Part shown: in pieces, positions 27,311 to 34,837 of the stretch | Position numbering within the stretch: position 1 is the first letter of the stretch | How the letters are laid out: each line of letters begins with the position of its first letter | NCBI RefSeq assembly: GCF_001466665.1 | Contig: NZ_KQ758903.1 | Coordinates: 1,113,684-1,177,683, forward strand | Length of the DNA: 64,000 bases | DNA from: Dehalogenimonas alkenigignens | GTDB lineage: Bacteria > Chloroflexota > Dehalococcoidia > Dehalococcoidales > Dehalococcoidaceae | Direction of reading: 5' to 3' | Program-made: the position numbers and the translations under genes | The notes under the pieces: model-generated | The model's input: only the letters and a program-made list of their open reading frames with translations | The model's database searches: none | What the model was told of the DNA's origin: nothing

Positions 27311-28012
27311 TTATTCCGGCTTGGCTAACTGATAACCGGCGCCGATGCGGGTGAGCAGCAGTTTGGGGTCGGAGGGGTTATCCTCTATTTTTTCACGCAG
27401 GTGGCGGACATATACCTTCAGGCTTTCCGCGGCGCCGGGATATTCTTCGCCCCACAGCGCTTTCGCCAGGACGGCGTGGCTCACCGGGTGACCGACATGA
27501 CGCATCAATTGCCCGAGGACGATGCCCTCAGTGCGGGTGAGGCTGATGCGCCGGTCTTTAAGTTTAAGATCGCGAATGGAAGGCCCCAGCGTCATTGAGC
27601 CCACGGTCAGCGGCAATTCCTCGGCAGAAGTTTCCTGGCGGCGCATGACCGCCTTGACCCTGGCCAGCAGTTCCATCTGCCGGAACGGTTTGATGATGTA
27701 TTCATCGGCGCCGAGTTCGAGACCGCGGACGATATCGGTTTCGTCTCCCCGGGCGGTCAGCACGATGACCGGAACGTGGCTGAAACGCCTGATGTCCTTG
27801 AGCACATTGAAGCCGCTGGTGTCCGGCAAACCCAGATCAAGAATGACCAGGTCCGGGTTGTTTTTATCCACCAGTTCCACGCCCTCCTGGCCGGAGTTAG
27901 CGGCCAAAAAGGTGGCCTGAGGCCAGCGGATCTTGAATGTGAGGGTTACCGCTTCGACGATTTCAGCGTCATCCTCGATCAGCACCACGGTCAACTCGGG
28001 TTTATTCACCAT
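27311..28012 (-). CDS. OmpR/KdpE-type response regulator
   Basis: A 233-residue two-component regulator. The receiver has the acidic pair in LIEDDAE (D14, D15), the phosphorylation site in VILDLGLPD (D59), the switch T/S in VLTARGD and the lysine in IIKPFR (K108). The winged-helix DNA-binding domain follows (about 135-230: SLTRTEGIVLGQLMRHVGHPVSH, VYVRHLREKIE). It starts 2 bases after the kinase stop behind GGAG, so the kinase and regulator are co-translated. Regulon unknown. Confidence 0.93.
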   Translation of the reverse strand: MVNKPELTVVLIEDDAEIVEAVTLTFKIRWPQATFLAANSGQEGVELVDKNNPDLVILDLGLPDTSGFNVLKDIRRFSHVPVIVLTARGDETDIVRGLELGADEYIIKPFRQMELLARVKAVMRRQETSAEELPLTVGSMTLGPSIRDLKLKDRRISLTRTEGIVLGQLMRHVGHPVSHAVLAKALWGEEYPGAAESLKVYVRHLREKIEDNPSDPKLLLTRIGAGYQLAKPE

Positions 28013-28014
28013 CT

Positions 28015-29205
28015 CTACTCCATTTCAGCCGTCAGCGGCAAGGTAAAATAGAATGTCGTGCCGCAGTCTTTTTCGCTTTCAAACCAGATATCGCCGCCCT
28101 GCAGCGTGACCAGCATTTTACATAACGCCAGGCCAATGCCCATGCCGTCGTTGGGATCGGCATCATCGACGATACGGTAATAGGGCTTGAAAATATGAGC
28201 CTGCTCCTGCAGGGTCATGCCGCGGCCCGTATCGGCGACGCTTAACCGCAGCATTTTACCACTAACCGCCGCGCCGATGGTAATCTGCCCGCCGCGCGGC
28301 GTGAACTTGCCGGCATTGTTGAGCAGGTTAAGCAGGATTTGCCGCAGCCGGTCCTCATCAGCCATAACCAGAGGGATGTCATCGTCGATCTCCAGTTCTA
28401 GAGACTGATTTTTGCGGTCGAATTGGGGCGATACCTGAGCGGCCAGGTCCAGGAGCAGCGGCGCGACATCCAGCGGTTGAGCGCGGACTTTCAGGACGCC
28501 CATTTCGCCGCGGGCGAAGTCCAGAAGGTCGTTGATACGCCGCTCAAGGTTCATGGCGCCGCGGTAAATGTTGCCAGCCAGCCGCAGTTCATCCTCGCCC
28601 TCGAGAATCTCTAGCAGCGCTTCGCCAGAAGCGATGAGGGGCGTCAGCGGTGTCTTAAGTTCATGAACCAAGGAGCGGGTAAAATCCACCCTTTTACTGA
28701 TTTCGGTCTCGAGCGCCTGCCGCAGCGATTTTTCCCGGTTATATGCCTCCGTCAGCGTTGAGGCTTCGGCTTTGCGGGCCGAAATATCCCGGGCAATCGA
28801 CAGCATGAATCGCCTGCCGTCAATGTTGAACGTACTGTAACTGATTTCAACCGGTTCATTCAGGCCTGATTTTGTTCGAAATGCCGATTCCAACACCCCG
28901 AATTGTCCGTCCGACGGTTGTTCGATAACGGCGGTTAATTCAGCCGGCGGCGACGGAAAGATATCGGCGAAAGCCAGGCCTGTCATCGCCTCAGGGGGGT
29001 AACCAAGCCTTTGGGCGGCCAGTAGGTTAGCTTCAGCAAGCACGGGAGTTTTGCCGGAACGGAGCTCCCAGAGGAGCATGGCGTCTGCGGCGGTTTGGAA
29101 TATCAGGCGAAACTTGCCTTCGGCTTTTTGCGGCCCCCGCTGTTTGACGGCGTCGCCGGGGCAGCCTGACTGGGTTTTGCCCGCTGCTTCTATGCTATTA
29201 TTCAT
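28015..29205 (-). CDS. PAS-domain sensor histidine kinase
   Basis: A soluble sensor kinase of 396 residues. A PAS domain (about 30-145, LIFQTAADAMLLWE...SIARDISARKAEA) leads to a coiled segment, the HisKA domain with FTRSLVHELKTPLTPL (H181), and the HATPase domain with NLLNNAGKF (N box), ADTGRGMT (G1) and GMGIGLALCK (G2). No transmembrane segment or signal peptide is visible, so it probably senses a cytoplasmic cue. The -10 at 29222-29227 puts transcription start near 29215, which rules out the open-frame start at 29223 and favours the ATG at 29205. Confidence 0.92.
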   Translation of the reverse strand: MNNSIEAAGKTQSGCPGDAVKQRGPQKAEGKFRLIFQTAADAMLLWELRSGKTPVLAEANLLAAQRLGYPPEAMTGLAFADIFPSPPAELTAVIEQPSDGQFGVLESAFRTKSGLNEPVEISYSTFNIDGRRFMLSIARDISARKAEASTLTEAYNREKSLRQALETEISKRVDFTRSLVHELKTPLTPLIASGEALLEILEGEDELRLAGNIYRGAMNLERRINDLLDFARGEMGVLKVRAQPLDVAPLLLDLAAQVSPQFDRKNQSLELEIDDDIPLVMADEDRLRQILLNLLNNAGKFTPRGGQITIGAAVSGKMLRLSVADTGRGMTLQEQAHIFKPYYRIVDDADPNDGMGIGLALCKMLVTLQGGDIWFESEKDCGTTFYFTLPLTAEME

Positions 29206-29221
29206 ACTTGATATCATTAAC

Positions 29222-29251
29222 ATTATACCGCCGTTGAAATCCTAATGTCAG
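29222..29251 (-). promoter_or_regulatory. Promoter of the kinase-regulator operon
   Basis: Minus strand: CTGACA (29246-29251), 18-base spacer, TATAAT (29222-29227). The implied 5' leader is only about 10 bases. Confidence 0.65.
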
Positions 29252-29267
29252 CAAAGGAAACAATGGA

Positions 29268-29549
29268 TTGGCTATACCGGAAACCGGGCAGGATGAGCCG
29301 CTTGATGAAAAGATGATGGCATGCCGCTGCGGTGAATGCGAGTCCGGGCGGCGCCGAGGCTGCAACAGCAGCCGTTTGAGAGAGCTGGTCGGAGTTTTAT
29401 TCGATGAGAAGCTGCCCGGGCTGTATTGCCGGCGGCCGCCCAAGCCGGCCAAAACCGATGCCGCTACGGTGGCTGAAGAGTGCCTCTGCGAGGGATGCAG
29501 TCTGAATATCGGCAACGCCTTATTCCATTGTAACCGGCGTACCGCCTAG
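29268..29549 (+). CDS. Small cysteine-rich protein, DUF2769-like
   Basis: A 93-residue product divergent from the kinase gene. It has two cysteine clusters, CRCGECESG at residues 19-27 and CLCEGCSLNIGNALFHC at 72-88, the pattern of the DUF2769 family common in methanogens and Dehalococcoidia. The family's function is not known to me; metal binding is likely. A TTG start lies 9 bases after AAGGA. The short length and the lack of a clear promoter keep confidence moderate. Its stop overlaps the end of the convergent GNAT gene by 4 bases. Confidence 0.5.
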   Translation: MAIPETGQDEPLDEKMMACRCGECESGRRRGCNSSRLRELVGVLFDEKLPGLYCRRPPKPAKTDAATVAEECLCEGCSLNIGNALFHCNRRTA

Positions 29550-30022
29550 CCGAGCTTTTTATAGAAGACGACCAGGTCATCGCCGCGGTCGTAAAAGTCC
29601 GGGATTCGGGCTATCTCGGTATACCCGCAGCTGGCGTGAAAACGCCTCGTCCTGGCGTATTGGGGTGTGGAAGATGTTTCAAGGGTGATTTGCCAGCCGC
29701 CGCGCTGCTTGACCGCTGTCTCGCAGCGATTCATCAATTCCCGCCCGATGCCGCGGCCCTGGACTGCCGGGTCCACGGCAGCCCAGTAGATTTCCCAGTT
29801 GCCGCGGGAAAGAGGAGTGTTGCCGTAAGTCGCGTAGCCGACAGGGCTGCCTTCCAACTCGGCGACTACGGTATAGTAACCCGAATCTTTCGGATTTGCC
29901 GCCGAAGCCTCAAGCACTTCATCCGCCACCGGCAACTCATCAGGGGCGAATTCCTGAATCCGGCGCAGTATTGACTTCAGGACGGGCAGATCTCCCGGGA
30001 CGATCTCCCTGTAAACGATCAT
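29546..30022 (-). CDS. GNAT-family acetyltransferase of the kamA operon
   Basis: A 158-residue acetyltransferase with the acetyl-CoA loop AAVDPAVQGRGIGRELMNRCE (about 81-101), and LETSSTPQYARTRRFHASCGYTEIARIPDFYDRGDD in the C-terminal half. Its ATG overlaps the stop of the upstream ATP-grasp gene as ATGA, so the four genes from kamA are translated as a chain. By position it could acetylate beta-lysine or the ligase product; it is much shorter than the known beta-lysine acetyltransferase AblB (about 270 residues). The substrate is therefore inferred only. Confidence 0.88.
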   Translation of the reverse strand: MIVYREIVPGDLPVLKSILRRIQEFAPDELPVADEVLEASAANPKDSGYYTVVAELEGSPVGYATYGNTPLSRGNWEIYWAAVDPAVQGRGIGRELMNRCETAVKQRGGWQITLETSSTPQYARTRRFHASCGYTEIARIPDFYDRGDDLVVFYKKLG

Positions 30023-31032
30023 CTTACCTCCAGAGCGAAGCCGATGATTTTTTCAACCATGCTTTGATACGACAGCCCGGCGGCGCCGGCCTGCCGTGTC
30101 ATTCCGGCGTCGGGGGCTAAGTCCGGATTGGCATTAACCTCAATAACCACCGGACGGCCGGAGGCATCGAGGCGCATATCCACCCGGGCATAACCGCGGC
30201 AGCCGGCAGCGGCACTGGCAGCTAAAGCGGTTTTTCTGAGGGCAGCATCCAGGAGCGGGTCGATCTCCGCCGGGCACTTGACGCTGGTGTTTTGAAAATA
30301 GGCGCTTTGAGGCTCCCATTTGGCGGCGAAGGTCAGAATCGGGGGCAGGCCCTGGGGCAAGGTATAAAGAATTTCCGAAATCGGTAAAACCTCCCGGCTG
30401 GCGGCGCCAAAAACAGTCGCGTTAAATTCCCGGCCCGGTAGGAACTCCTCAACCAGGGCTGGCGAACCGTCGTACCTTTCCACCATCGATTTCACTTCGG
30501 CTTTCAGAGCCGGCAGATCAAATACCACGCTTGTTTCGGACAAGCCATGCGAAGCGTCATCAGAACGCGGCTTGACGATACAGGGAAAATCCAGACTGAA
30601 ATCCGAGAAGTCTGTTCCATCGCACAGTTGCTGGATCGGCGTTGGAACACCGGCCTGGCGCAGGACGGCGGCGGCGTCCGATTTATCGAGCGTCAACGCC
30701 AGGGCGGCTGACGGCGAACCGGTAAATGGTATTATTAAGGCCTCAAGGGAAGCGGCGACCTCCGCTTCCGTCCCAGGCATGCCGGCAAATCCTTCGAACA
30801 GGTTGAAAACGATATCAGCTTCGATTGACGCCAGCGTTTTTCCCGCCCTGCCGACCGGCGGCAATAAAGGGTAACTGATCCAGTCGTGACCGAGACTGGT
30901 TAGCGCCTGTCCGACACAGGCTACGGCATCCATCACCCCGGTTTCAGCCCTTGATTCGCCGCGGGCGTCATAGAGCGAAGGCACCGGCGCGTTGAAGATC
31001 AAGGCTACCCGCAACGGCTTGAAGGGGATCAT
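30019..31032 (-). CDS. ATP-grasp ligase, D-Ala-D-Ala ligase-like (second of the pair)
   Basis: A 337-residue carboxylate-amine ligase fold. FNLFEGFAGMPGTEAEVAASLEALIIPFTG near 76-105 and the ATP-grasp elements CIVKPRSDDASHGLS (about 167), ALVEEFLPGREFNATVFG (about 209) and ARVDMRLDASGRPVVIEVNANPDL (about 295) match the D-alanine-D-alanine ligase family. It overlaps the upstream paralogue as ATGA and the GNAT gene as ATGA. A peptidoglycan role is doubtful: Dehalococcoidia studied so far lack a murein wall, and the genes sit with lysine 2,3-aminomutase. Confidence 0.88.
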   Translation of the reverse strand: MIPFKPLRVALIFNAPVPSLYDARGESRAETGVMDAVACVGQALTSLGHDWISYPLLPPVGRAGKTLASIEADIVFNLFEGFAGMPGTEAEVAASLEALIIPFTGSPSAALALTLDKSDAAAVLRQAGVPTPIQQLCDGTDFSDFSLDFPCIVKPRSDDASHGLSETSVVFDLPALKAEVKSMVERYDGSPALVEEFLPGREFNATVFGAASREVLPISEILYTLPQGLPPILTFAAKWEPQSAYFQNTSVKCPAEIDPLLDAALRKTALAASAAAGCRGYARVDMRLDASGRPVVIEVNANPDLAPDAGMTRQAGAAGLSYQSMVEKIIGFALEVR

Positions 31033-32036
31033 CGGAGCCCGGGATACCGGCTGATTGCGGCGGTAAGGATGGACCGGATCATCATGGCGTGACTCCAGCC
31101 CATCGCCGTGGCAATGATAAAAAGGTCGCTGTCGAGCGATAGACCCGGCAGAGGGTTGACCTCCAAAAAATACGGAGTGCCGTCAGCGGCGACGCGGAAA
31201 TCCATGCGGGTGAAATCACGGCAGCCGAGCGTGCCGAAAACAGCCAGCGCCTGTGACTTGATGCGGTCGATAACCTCCGCCGGAAGCCTGGCCGGGTATT
31301 CGTAATCGACCAGGTTCTTGTAGTCACGTTTGACTTCCAGCGAATAGATGAACGGACCGGCTTTTTGCCGGGGTACGATCCGCATCGGCATTACCAGCGG
31401 CGGGGCGGCGGCACCAATGTTGCCGATGATGCCGCAGGTCACCTCGTCGCCGTCAATGAATTCCTCAGCGATGACCGGAGAGCCATAGTTCTTGAACAAT
31501 GCCTCGGCGTGGTCGGCGACCTCGGCCGGGTTGGTGGCCAGCGAGGTCAGACGGATACCCTTGCTCGATCCTTCGAAGGCGGGCTTGACGAAGGCCGGGA
31601 ATCGGAAGCCGTGCCAATCAGCCGAACGGGCTTGACCCGGGGCATCGAAAAAGCGCCAACCGGGCGTGGTCACGCCGGCAGCCTGGACGATTTGTTTGGT
31701 CAACGGCTTATCAAGGGCGATTGAAAGCGTCTGAGGATCGGCGCCGGTATAAGGAATACCGAGCATCTCCAGCACCGACGGAACCTGCGCTTCACGCGAA
31801 CGATAGGCACCTCTGCCTTCGGCGATGTTGAAGACGAAGTCTATCGGTTCACGGAGCACGCTCAACAGGAACTGTTTGCCGCCGCCAAGCAGTATCGGAG
31901 TATGACCCGATCCTTCAATAGCCGCCGAGATGAGACTCACCGTTTCGGCGGAGTCATATTCCTCAAGGGCATCGGCGGGTGCATCGGGGCCGGCGATGAC
32001 GGATTGTTTAAGGTCGTATGCCAGCCCTATCTTCAT
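31029..32036 (-). CDS. ATP-grasp ligase, D-Ala-D-Ala ligase-like (first of the pair)
   Basis: A 335-residue relative of the following gene, but diverged. It has FVFNIAEGRGAYRSREAQVPSVLEMLGIPYTG near 67-98, FVKPAFEGSSKGI near 146, VIAEEFIDGDEVTCG near 187 and TRMDFRVAADGTPYFLEVNPLPGLSLDSD near 273. GAGGTAA precedes the ATG at 32036, which lies 29 bases inside the end of kamA. Two unlike ligases in a row suggest two successive amide bonds or two substrates. The N-terminal YDLKQS and substrate loops differ from canonical Ddl. Confidence 0.88.
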   Translation of the reverse strand: MKIGLAYDLKQSVIAGPDAPADALEEYDSAETVSLISAAIEGSGHTPILLGGGKQFLLSVLREPIDFVFNIAEGRGAYRSREAQVPSVLEMLGIPYTGADPQTLSIALDKPLTKQIVQAAGVTTPGWRFFDAPGQARSADWHGFRFPAFVKPAFEGSSKGIRLTSLATNPAEVADHAEALFKNYGSPVIAEEFIDGDEVTCGIIGNIGAAAPPLVMPMRIVPRQKAGPFIYSLEVKRDYKNLVDYEYPARLPAEVIDRIKSQALAVFGTLGCRDFTRMDFRVAADGTPYFLEVNPLPGLSLDSDLFIIATAMGWSHAMMIRSILTAAISRYPGLR

Positions 32037-33306
32037 TCTTTACCTCAGTGACGGTCCAGCCAAACGGAAGCTGCGGCGGCGCCGTAACTCCAACTTTCGG
32101 TTTGCGGGGTAGGGGCGCAGATTTAGGGTTGGTGAAGTGACTGATATGCCCTTCATAGTTGCGTACCACCAGCTCGTGGTCGGTACGGGTGAGGACATAG
32201 TTCGGCGTCAGGGGGATTTTACCCCGGCCGTCCGGCAGGTCGATGACATAATTGGGGATGGCCAGGCCGGAGGTATGGCCGCGCATGCCTTCGATGATAC
32301 GCAAACCGACTTCCACTGGCGTCCAGAAGTATTCAGTGCCCTGGACCTGGTCGCACTGGAAGAGGTAGTAGGGGCGGACCTTGGCCCTGAGCAAGCCGTG
32401 GCAAAGCTTTAACTGGGTATCTACGGTATCGTTGACGCCGCGCAGGAGGACGCTCTGGTTATTGACCTGGACGCCGGCGCGCAGCAGTCGGTCGCAGGCT
32501 CCGGCAGCCTCGGGCGTAATTTCGTTGGGGTGGTTGAAATGGGTGTTGAGCCAGATGGGGCCGTATTTGGACAGCATGGCGCAAAGCTCTTCGTCGATGC
32601 GCTGCGGCAGCACCACCGGGAAGCGGGTGCCGATACGGATGATCTCGACGTGCGGGATCTGCCGCAAAGCGGACAGGACTTTTTCTAGCTGCGGCGTGGA
32701 CAGGGTCAGCGGGTCGCCGCCGGAGATGATGACGTCGCGCACCTGAGGGGTTCTGCGGATGTAGTCCAGCATCCGTTCGATCTCGGCCGGGGTGTGGATC
32801 CAGCCGCCGTGGTGCCATTCGCGCTTGCGGGTGCAGTGGCGGCAGAGCATGGCGCAGATATCGGTCAAGACCATAAGTACCCGGTCCGGATAGCGGTGCA
32901 CCAGGCCGGGCACCACCGAGTCGCGCTCTTCAGCCAGTGGATCCTCGTGCCCGGCGCCGGCGGCTACTTCCAAGCTGCTTGGCACCGCCTGGAGGCGAAC
33001 CGGATCGCATGGATCGTCCAGGTCCATCAGCGACAGGTAGTAGGGGGTGACGGCCAGCGGGAAACGCGCGGAAACCAGCTTGAGCCTGGTGCGTTCCTTG
33101 ACGGTAAGAGGGATAAAGCGGGAAAGGTCTTCTACGGAGGTGATGCGGTTCCGGAAGTGCCAGCGCCAGTCGTTCCACTGGGCATCGCTGACATCGGGGT
33201 AGAACTTACGGCGGAAAACGGACGGACTAAGGGGAGGTTCGTCAGCTTCGGGCGAGCACGAGGGGGGTTCGGCCTTGTCTTCGGCAATCAGAGATTCTTC
33301 GGTCAC
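32008..33306 (-). CDS. kamA: Lysine 2,3-aminomutase (radical SAM, PLP)
   Basis: Interconverts L-lysine and L-beta-lysine. The radical SAM motif CAMLCRHC supplies C158, C162 and C165 (numbering from the upstream ATG). The two aspartates that hold the epsilon-amino group of lysine in the Clostridium enzyme are matched by D326 (QCDQVQG) and D363 (YVIDLPDGRGK), and the PLP lysine by K370. Glutamate 2,3-aminomutases lack these aspartates, so lysine is the likely substrate. AAGGAG stands nine bases before the GTG at 33306; the ATG at 33327 is the alternative and has no ribosome-binding site. A promoter lies at 33341-33368. Confidence 0.92.
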   Translation of the reverse strand: MTEESLIAEDKAEPPSCSPEADEPPLSPSVFRRKFYPDVSDAQWNDWRWHFRNRITSVEDLSRFIPLTVKERTRLKLVSARFPLAVTPYYLSLMDLDDPCDPVRLQAVPSSLEVAAGAGHEDPLAEERDSVVPGLVHRYPDRVLMVLTDICAMLCRHCTRKREWHHGGWIHTPAEIERMLDYIRRTPQVRDVIISGGDPLTLSTPQLEKVLSALRQIPHVEIIRIGTRFPVVLPQRIDEELCAMLSKYGPIWLNTHFNHPNEITPEAAGACDRLLRAGVQVNNQSVLLRGVNDTVDTQLKLCHGLLRAKVRPYYLFQCDQVQGTEYFWTPVEVGLRIIEGMRGHTSGLAIPNYVIDLPDGRGKIPLTPNYVLTRTDHELVVRNYEGHISHFTNPKSAPLPRKPKVGVTAPPQLPFGWTVTEVKNEDRAGIRP

Positions 33307-33340
33307 CTGTTTATTCTCCTTGGGCATCTAAGTGCTATTA

Positions 33341-33368
33341 ATTGTAGCAAACCTGCAAACGGCGTCAA
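33341..33368 (-). promoter_or_regulatory. Promoter of the kamA operon
   Basis: Minus strand: TTGACG (33363-33368), 16-base spacer, TACAAT (33341-33346). It shows that kamA can be expressed separately from the upstream transporter genes. Confidence 0.65.
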
Positions 33369-33409: not shown

Positions 33410-34837
33410 TTAAGGCGGCCACGGCGGGTAGGGCTCCGGCGGCCGCTTGACCTCCAATGGAAGAACGGCGGCAGCTGTCAAGATACCGGCGGCAGCCGGC
33501 TGAAACGGCGCCGCCGTCTCGATCAGCCGCAGCTCAACCGGCGACGGCACCAGTCTTGCCGGGAGCGGCGAAAACTGAGGAGAAGACGGCGAAAGCTTGA
33601 GATCGGCGGCTTTGGCGTCGTCCACTCGCGGCAGGAGCAGCGCCGAAGCCAGCGCCCGGGCAAGGCCGGAGAGCAGGAACAGCGTCAGAAAGCCGTGGCC
33701 GAAAAAATCCGGCATCCGCGGGGCGATGAGGCCTCCCAGCAGCGCGCCCGTACAGATAGCCAGACCGGAGGCGGCGTTATAGATAGCGATAGCCCGGGTC
33801 CGGCGCTCCGGCGCCGCTGCTTCGAACAGGAAGTTGGGCGCGGCCAGGTTAAAACCGCTCCAGGAAAAACCAGAGAAGACTTGGATAACCAGCAGATAGG
33901 GCAGCGAATGCCCGCCCAGCCACAGGATAGGGTTCAGGGGCACCAGCCACGCGGTTAAGCGCACTATCTTGATGTGACCGATCCGGTCGGCCAGGCGGCC
34001 CCAGAATCCAATGAACAGAAAATTGGCCACCGCCGCGGCCGCGGTGACGACCACGAATGTCCAGTAGCTGAAACCCAGCTCCCGCAGCATGTAAACGGCG
34101 AAGAACGGTCCCGCCAGGTGGGTGGACAGCATCATGGCGGCAACGAACAGGCTGAAGCGGCCGGCCCGCGTGCCGGAGATGTTTTTAATTTCGCGCAGCG
34201 GCTGCCACGGCTCGGCGCAGCGGCGCGGCGGCGGCTCCTGCATGCGGGAAAGGAAGAAAGCCGAGGCCAGCCGGAAGATGGCGGCGGCGCCGAAGAGCAG
34301 CCCGAAACCGAAGAACACGTGGCTGCTGGAAAGCTGTAAGGATGCCCCGCCCAGGATGAAACAGGCCAGAAGGGTCATGCCGCCGATCTTGTTGCGCCAG
34401 CCGAAGTAACGCCCGCGCAGGCCGGCGGGCACCAGGTCGGCCATCATGCCGCCCCAGGCTGGATTACCGAGCGCCCCAAGGACGCTGCCTATTGTGAACA
34501 AGCCGATGAGCCACCACACTGCGGCCCCATGGAAGAGCTGCGGCATCAGAAAAAGCGGCAGCCACAGCACCGCCTGGGCTAAGGCCAAAGGCACCAGCAG
34601 GCTCTTACGACTGCGCAGCCGTTCGGAGATGAACGGAGCGCCAAGCTGCGACAGCGCCAGCGCCAGGTTGGGCAGGCTGGAGAGAAGGCCGATCTGGGCG
34701 GTGGATGCCTTGAGCGCCAGGGCGAAGGGCGCCATGAAGTCCTGGGTGAGCCCCAGCATGGCGTTGTAAGAGGCGCCGTCAAGTACGGAATAGCGAAGGC
34801 TTTTGTTAACGGCGGGGTCCGGCGAATACTGTTTCAT
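33410..34837 (-). CDS. MFS transporter
   Basis: A 475-residue membrane protein of about 12 hydrophobic segments with major-facilitator features: a conserved loop with SERLRSRKSLL between segments 2 and 3, LRGRYFGWRNKIGG between 4 and 5, and GRLADRIGHIK in the second half. A proline-rich cytoplasmic tail (PPEPYPPWPP) ends the protein. The substrate is unknown. It starts 1 base after the stop of the ArsB-type permease gene and ends 82 bases before the kamA start, so export of a kamA-operon product is conceivable but unproven. Confidence 0.88.
   Translation of the reverse strand: MKQYSPDPAVNKSLRYSVLDGASYNAMLGLTQDFMAPFALALKASTAQIGLLSSLPNLALALSQLGAPFISERLRSRKSLLVPLALAQAVLWLPLFLMPQLFHGAAVWWLIGLFTIGSVLGALGNPAWGGMMADLVPAGLRGRYFGWRNKIGGMTLLACFILGGASLQLSSSHVFFGFGLLFGAAAIFRLASAFFLSRMQEPPPRRCAEPWQPLREIKNISGTRAGRFSLFVAAMMLSTHLAGPFFAVYMLRELGFSYWTFVVVTAAAAVANFLFIGFWGRLADRIGHIKIVRLTAWLVPLNPILWLGGHSLPYLLVIQVFSGFSWSGFNLAAPNFLFEAAAPERRTRAIAIYNAASGLAICTGALLGGLIAPRMPDFFGHGFLTLFLLSGLARALASALLLPRVDDAKAADLKLSPSSPQFSPLPARLVPSPVELRLIETAAPFQPAAAGILTAAAVLPLEVKRPPEPYPPWPP

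Follow-up and report, generated by a model that had tools for sequence, protein, structure and literature searches.

A lysine 2,3-aminomutase and ATP-grasp ligase cassette in Dehalogenimonas alkenigignens with a predicted beta-lysine peptide product

Closest described systems and the aminomutase operon

Several described systems invite comparison with the operon considered here, a run of four genes for a lysine-type 2,3-aminomutase (KamA), two ATP-grasp ligases resembling D-Ala-D-Ala ligase (Ddl) and a GNAT acetyltransferase, which lies in a 64,000-nucleotide stretch of Dehalogenimonas alkenigignens (contig NZ_KQ758903.1, positions 1,113,684 to 1,177,683; here called the window) from a genome that is a single contig of 1.85 Mb. 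The AblA-AblB pathway likewise pairs a lysine 2,3-aminomutase (LAM) with a GNAT acetyltransferase, but the GNAT of the operon is not AblB and the operon adds two ATP-grasp ligases. In the bacilysin (BacD/BacE) type of system a free-standing ATP-grasp ligase makes a dipeptide and a carrier gene stands beside it; the operon has Ddl-like ligases, and its aminomutase would supply a beta-amino acid. The N-acetylglutaminylglutamine amide osmolyte genes combine an ATP-grasp enzyme with a GNAT to give an acetylated dipeptide, whereas the operon is without their asparagine-synthetase-like amidotransferase and would use beta-lysine instead of glutamine. Ddl and VanA have the same ATP-grasp fold and ATP/Mg residues as the operon ligases and are their nearest solved structures, but their substrate residues are replaced in both ligases and no murein pathway accompanies them. 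In the EpmB-EpmA beta-lysylation of elongation factor P (EF-P), finally, beta-lysine is again made by a KamA-family aminomutase, and EpmA and EF-P Lys34 are found in this genome; EpmB, however, is absent, and the operon's KamA is LAM-like and tied to ATP-grasp ligases.

We consider it fairly probable that the operon makes a small beta-lysine-containing peptide and that in Dehalococcoidales its KamA does double duty for EF-P. The component parts are of known kinds; their combination appears to be undescribed in searchable papers, and no description of a kamA-ligA cassette was found in the literature searched, although a mention in a 2009 survey of ATP-grasp amidoligases is possible. The features that carry the argument are these:

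32008..33327, minus strand: KamA, lysine-type 2,3-aminomutase (Radical_SAM and LAM_C domains; likely start GTG 33306)
33226..33273, minus strand: N-terminal acidic-PP motif of KamA, two copies (AEPPS, DEPPL), residues 19-34
31029..32036, minus strand: LigA, Ddl-like ATP-grasp ligase (Dala_Dala_lig_C, 105.9 bits)
30019..31032, minus strand: LigB, second Ddl-like ATP-grasp ligase (Dala_Dala_lig_C, 80.7 bits)
29546..30022, minus strand: GNAT N-acetyltransferase (Acetyltransf_1, 57 bits)

All four reading frames lie where the sequence-only reading had placed them, with overlaps of 29, 4 and 4 bases at the kamA/ligA, ligA/ligB and ligB/GNAT junctions. The arrangement is far beyond chance, since the four-gene order recurs across Dehalococcoidales and kamA-ligA recurs across phyla.

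Active sites of the aminomutase and the ligases

KamA scores 473.2 bits against TIGR03820 (cut-off 525.4) and 328 bits against TIGR00238 (cut-off 199), as compared with 244 bits for the EpmB model. When it is aligned over its core to the LAM of C. subterminale (PDB 2A5H), Asp293 and Asp330 of the latter fall on KamA Asp326 and Asp363, and KamA also has counterparts of LAM Lys337, Arg134 and the three cluster cysteines; we take these to be the lysine-reading aspartates, the pyridoxal phosphate lysine, the carboxylate arginine and the CxxxCxxC cluster. Cys158, Cys162, Cys165, Arg167, Asp326, Asp363 and Lys370 do not vary among the 87 cluster KamAs, whatever the phylum, so that the lysine-specific aspartates picked out in the sequence-only reading are well supported. 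The C-terminal half of LAM_C, with its zinc cysteines, is missing. With its active-site residues intact, Asp326 and Asp363 included, KamA appears to be of the lysine type and would convert L-lysine to beta-lysine. The genome encodes no other full KamA. A conserved C-terminal tail of KamA (DRAxxRP) was set aside as a feature, being encoded in the overlap with the start of ligA.

Both ligases are well above the Pfam cut-off for Dala_Dala_lig_C (24 bits), and a Foldseek search with their AlphaFold models (predicted local distance difference test scores of 88 for LigA and 91 for LigB) gives Ddl as the nearest solved folds. The L-amino acid ligase 3VOT is matched only distantly. The equivalents of the ATP/Mg residues K97, K144, E180, R255, D257, E270 and N272 are retained in both and invariant. 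The positions that in DdlB are concerned with substrate tell a different story. LigB differs from E. coli DdlB by S150A, Y216W, G276D and L282G, all invariant in 15 orthologues; at E15, S150, Y216, S281 and L282 it has A, A, W, a variable residue and G. LigA retains E15, S150 and S281, but L282 is replaced by D, there is no Tyr at 216, and in its omega-loop K236-R237 stand in place of the K-Y of Ddl (a pairing made by eye, since the alignment has gaps in this loop). Both ligases have Glu in place of Ddl His63. The NCBIfam Ddl models give the two ligases 152.7 and 128.2 bits against a cut-off of 243, and both are far below every Ddl cut-off. LigA and LigB thus belong to the Ddl family of ATP-grasp ligases, but the replacement of the Ddl substrate residues in both makes D-Ala-D-Ala synthesis unlikely. 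E26, D28, N70, E73, R81 and E82 of LigA are shared by virtually all of the 109 relatives compared, and this acidic set could serve to recognise a diamine. The genome has one more Ddl-like ATP-grasp gene, its third (G000:C1:878046-878954; L160:3936-5045), which occurs also in two close relatives, is not found in most of the genus and has no wall genes around it.

The family placement of the ligases by Pfam and fold, together with the proximity of some loci elsewhere to S66 LD-carboxypeptidase, GH3/NagZ-like or alanine-racemase-like genes, would suit ordinary D-Ala-D-Ala ligases in a cluster left over from wall metabolism. We regard this as extremely improbable given the profile scores and replaced residues just described, and given the genomes themselves: no penicillin-binding-protein transpeptidase was found in 31 genomes by a search that was positive in ten control bacteria, and each has at most one Mur-ligase-type domain, the single one in D. 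alkenigignens included, which fits folylpolyglutamate synthase or the like. Murein synthesis in the Dehalogenimonas genome is therefore very unlikely, and a murein role of the operon was ruled out on the combined grounds of the missing transpeptidases, the lone Mur-ligase domain and the replaced Ddl residues, which bears out the sequence-only reading's doubt that the ligases serve a wall. Peptidoglycan synthesis has been reported as lacking from genomes of Dehalococcoidia (PMC4959651) and of related Chloroflexi (PMC3971608). A Ddl annotation is misleading in these wall-less Dehalococcoidia.

Distribution of the kamA-ligA cassette

Within the order, a search of 61 relatives with LigA as query gave strong matches in 31, a further weak match (in G055) being another protein. 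A full KamA is encoded in 30 of the 31 LigA genomes versus 1 of the 30 that have no LigA. Nearly all of the 20 Dehalococcoidales loci fetched have their genes in the order kamA-ligA-ligB-GNAT; at one of them ligA has no adjacent kamA, at another an insertion separates the GNAT gene from ligB, and three Dehalococcoides-type genomes retain kamA-ligA only, without ligB and the GNAT. The kamA/ligA overlap is of 29 bases in 12 of these loci and of 23 bases in three. At L054 (9888-11316) ligB and the GNAT gene are parted by an inserted gene for a REase-ARP-type nuclease and a small RelE-like reading frame, and one contig titled Deltaproteobacteria (L073) carries a Dehalococcoidales-like cluster that is probably a binning error.

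Outside the order, an alignment of LigA searched against 84,980 species genomes gave at least 580 stretches, of which the best 80 loci were taken; 44 of these lie outside the Dehalococcoidales-like set, and all that follows on such loci refers to this best 80. KamA is encoded at 34 of the 44, though LigA alone was the query, and these KamA-bearing loci span about ten phyla. By their record titles the loci outside the order come from Planctomycetota, Acidobacteria, Deltaproteobacteria, Omnitrophota, Margulisiibacteriota, Riflebacteria/Ozemobacter, Calditrichaeota, Hydrothermus, Bacillota, Caldiserica/Cryosericum and Myxococcales. The arrangements vary: the four-gene order occurs here too, LigB and the GNAT are fused in L092 and L109, Bacillota have ligA-kamA alone, some Omnitrophota have ligA-ligA-kamA, and L106 and L111 encode, besides an S66 LD-carboxypeptidase, a third protein with ATP-grasp-like motifs and no Pfam match. 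The cassette is thus widespread, not local as the sequence-only reading took it to be, and its core is kamA-ligA; it is best read as a minimal core to which ligB, the GNAT and a transporter, as well as the third ATP-grasp protein and the S66 peptidase, would have been added by lineage. In a midpoint-rooted tree the ligA-linked KamAs are not set off from LAM/AblA as a single clade, so kamA and ligA may have become linked on more than one occasion, or the LAM line may have lost ligA.

Two minor observations belong with these loci. A conserved protein of about 330 amino acids with ATP-grasp-like motifs, matched by neither Pfam nor NCBIfam, accompanies kamA-ligA at L106 (9021-10007), L111, L113, L124, L092 and L114, and in a metagenome-assembled Hydrothermus genome kamA is apparently split by a frameshift (L100:5430-6783).

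The presence of KamA and an acetyltransferase in one operon could also indicate a variant N-epsilon-acetyl-beta-lysine osmolyte route in which the ligases are accessory. The nearest solved relative of the GNAT, however, is 2R7H, a putative D-alanine N-acetyltransferase (E 1.8e-44), and the GNAT does not match TIGR03827, the AblB model. A true AblA-AblB is found at another locus in Dehalococcoides-type genomes, those of the sister genus (L151, L152 and L154), as a fusion of AblB with a further KamA (754 bits for the KamA and 346 bits for the AblB domain), and these same genomes hold a separate kamA-ligA without ligB or GNAT; moreover, the constant partner of kamA across phyla is ligA, not the GNAT. 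The AblB role of the GNAT was accordingly rejected, and we think the osmolyte route improbable. That one genome holds both loci argues for a kamA-ligA product that differs from acetyl-beta-lysine.

EF-P, the predicted product and neighbouring genes

About 34 kb from kamA the genome encodes an EF-P with an E. coli-type VKPGKG loop (Lys34), and EpmA follows it five bases downstream. In the described pathway EpmB makes (R)-beta-lysine and EpmA mainly uses the (R) form (PMC4739656). EpmB is absent here, the only KamA-family gene over cut-off being that of the operon, and this coincidence of a sole full KamA with EF-P and EpmA was missed in the sequence-only reading. With EpmA counted as a match of more than 250 bits in a frame of 298-362 amino acids (matches of about 500 amino acids being lysyl-tRNA synthetase), it is found in 26 of the 31 operon-bearing genomes versus none of the 30 others (p 2e-12, indicative only, as it is uncorrected for phylogeny and the genomes are related and vary in completeness). 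In one family (f17) one genus has EpmA as well as the operon and another has neither, and five genomes with EpmA outside the order have only a ligA-linked KamA. As the only full KamA in a genome that has EF-P and EpmA without EpmB, KamA probably also supplies beta-lysine for EF-P modification; judged by gene content, it would be the only enzyme able to do so in Dehalococcoidales. Such a supply is a testable explanation of how EF-P could receive beta-lysine in bacteria that have EpmA and no EpmB.

The confinement of EpmA to kamA genomes and the absence of EpmB could be taken further, such that KamA serves mainly EF-P, while LigA, LigB and the GNAT form a separate lysine-peptide pathway sharing the operon. 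We think this unlikely. Five kamA-ligA genomes within the order have no EpmA, nor do most outside it, and in two deltaproteobacterial genomes an extra KamA adjoins EpmA, as EpmB would, with the ligA-linked KamA kept separately. The link of KamA to LigA is the tighter one.

Of further interest is the N-terminal tail of KamA, which bears (D/E)EPP(S/G), usually twice and about 14 residues apart. The acidic-PP motif is present in one to three copies in KamAs of Dehalococcoidales and of several other phyla, including those of Planctomycetota, Omnitrophota and Hydrothermus; neither LAM nor the KamAs of Bacillota have it. In the fetched loci [DE][DE]PP[SG] is encoded by 49 of 1291 genes, and 47 of the 49 are KamA. 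PP motifs are EF-P targets, PPG being listed as a strong pause (PMC4739656), and EpmA and the motif coexist in Dehalococcoidales, which would suit a translational sensor coupling KamA synthesis to EF-P modification. Outside the order, however, there are genomes with the motif but no EpmA, and most of those with EpmA lack the motif. We therefore find such a sensor very improbable, and a role in docking to a partner enzyme would fit better.

In the beta-lysine peptide pathway that we favour, KamA would convert L-lysine to beta-lysine, and LigA, given its near-obligatory linkage with kamA, would activate a carboxylate as acyl-phosphate and join beta-lysine to a second amino acid or vice versa. 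LigB would add a third unit or make a second amide, the GNAT would N-acetylate the product and, where present, a carrier of the major facilitator superfamily (MFS) would move it, while in Dehalococcoidales KamA would in addition feed EpmA for Lys34 of EF-P. The product of the pathway may act as a compatible solute, or it may be a di- or tripeptide that the cell exports. A beta-lysine amide is the leading reading, and nothing points to the lipid or cell-surface conjugate that the sequence-only reading also allowed for.

Several points weigh against this pathway. Ligase specificity is not readable from sequence, so that the ligase substrates and product are predicted only; KamA is under the AblA equivalog cut-off of TIGR03820, and the EpmA of this genome (270 bits) is slightly under its curated cut-off of 286.9. 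LAM-type enzymes make (S)-beta-lysine, and EpmA's main use of the (R) form is the chief doubt about a supply of EF-P by KamA. Finally, the LigA-LigA fusions of Myxococcales and the LigA of Cryosericum have no neighbouring kamA, and LigA may therefore use another substrate there.

In Cryosericum (L117 and L121) one or two genes of the alanine-racemase fold come after ligA, together with a gene for a conserved protein that has no Pfam match, and an S58 (DmpA/BapA-type) aminopeptidase, of a family that includes beta-peptide hydrolases, adjoins the fusions of Myxococcaceae at L125, L133 and L134. As a general partner the S58 enzyme was rejected, being found only in these three and absent in the 61 relatives.

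A wider proposal, which we offer tentatively, is that ATP-grasp-made beta-lysine peptides, serving as solute or signal, form an unrecognised and widespread class in at least ten phyla, with the aminomutase recruited through its EPP docking tail and doubling as EF-P supplier where EpmB is missing. As a conserved cassette of organohalide-respiring Dehalococcoidia, Planctomycetota, Omnitrophota, Bacillota and others, kamA-ligA has a product that can be sought directly by mass spectrometry.

Two further features lie upstream of kamA:

33341..33368, minus strand: sigma-70-type promoter-like site of the operon (TTGACG-16-TACAAT, 10/12, TG before the -10 box)
33410..34837, minus strand: MFS transporter, a possible exporter or importer of the product, of a subfamily that recurs near kamA-ligA

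The sequence-only reading put a single promoter in front of the operon, and one promoter-like site is indeed there; it is suggestive only as the operon promoter, because the scan found 4 such sites versus 1.6 +/- 1.4 expected by chance. The true start of KamA is more likely the in-frame GTG 33306, which has AGGAG nine bases upstream and the same codon at that place in several orthologues, than ATG 33327, which sits only about 14 bases past the -10 box. The MFS subfamily adjoins kamA-ligA in five other Dehalogenimonas-type loci and in L056, L067 and L076, and a relative (36% identity over 392 amino acids) adjoins the Margulisiibacteriota cluster L106, though the gene is not at every kamA-ligA locus. 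On the other side, a histidine kinase and a response regulator (window 27311-29223) come after the operon, as they do at every one of the eight Dehalogenimonas-type loci, and may regulate it.

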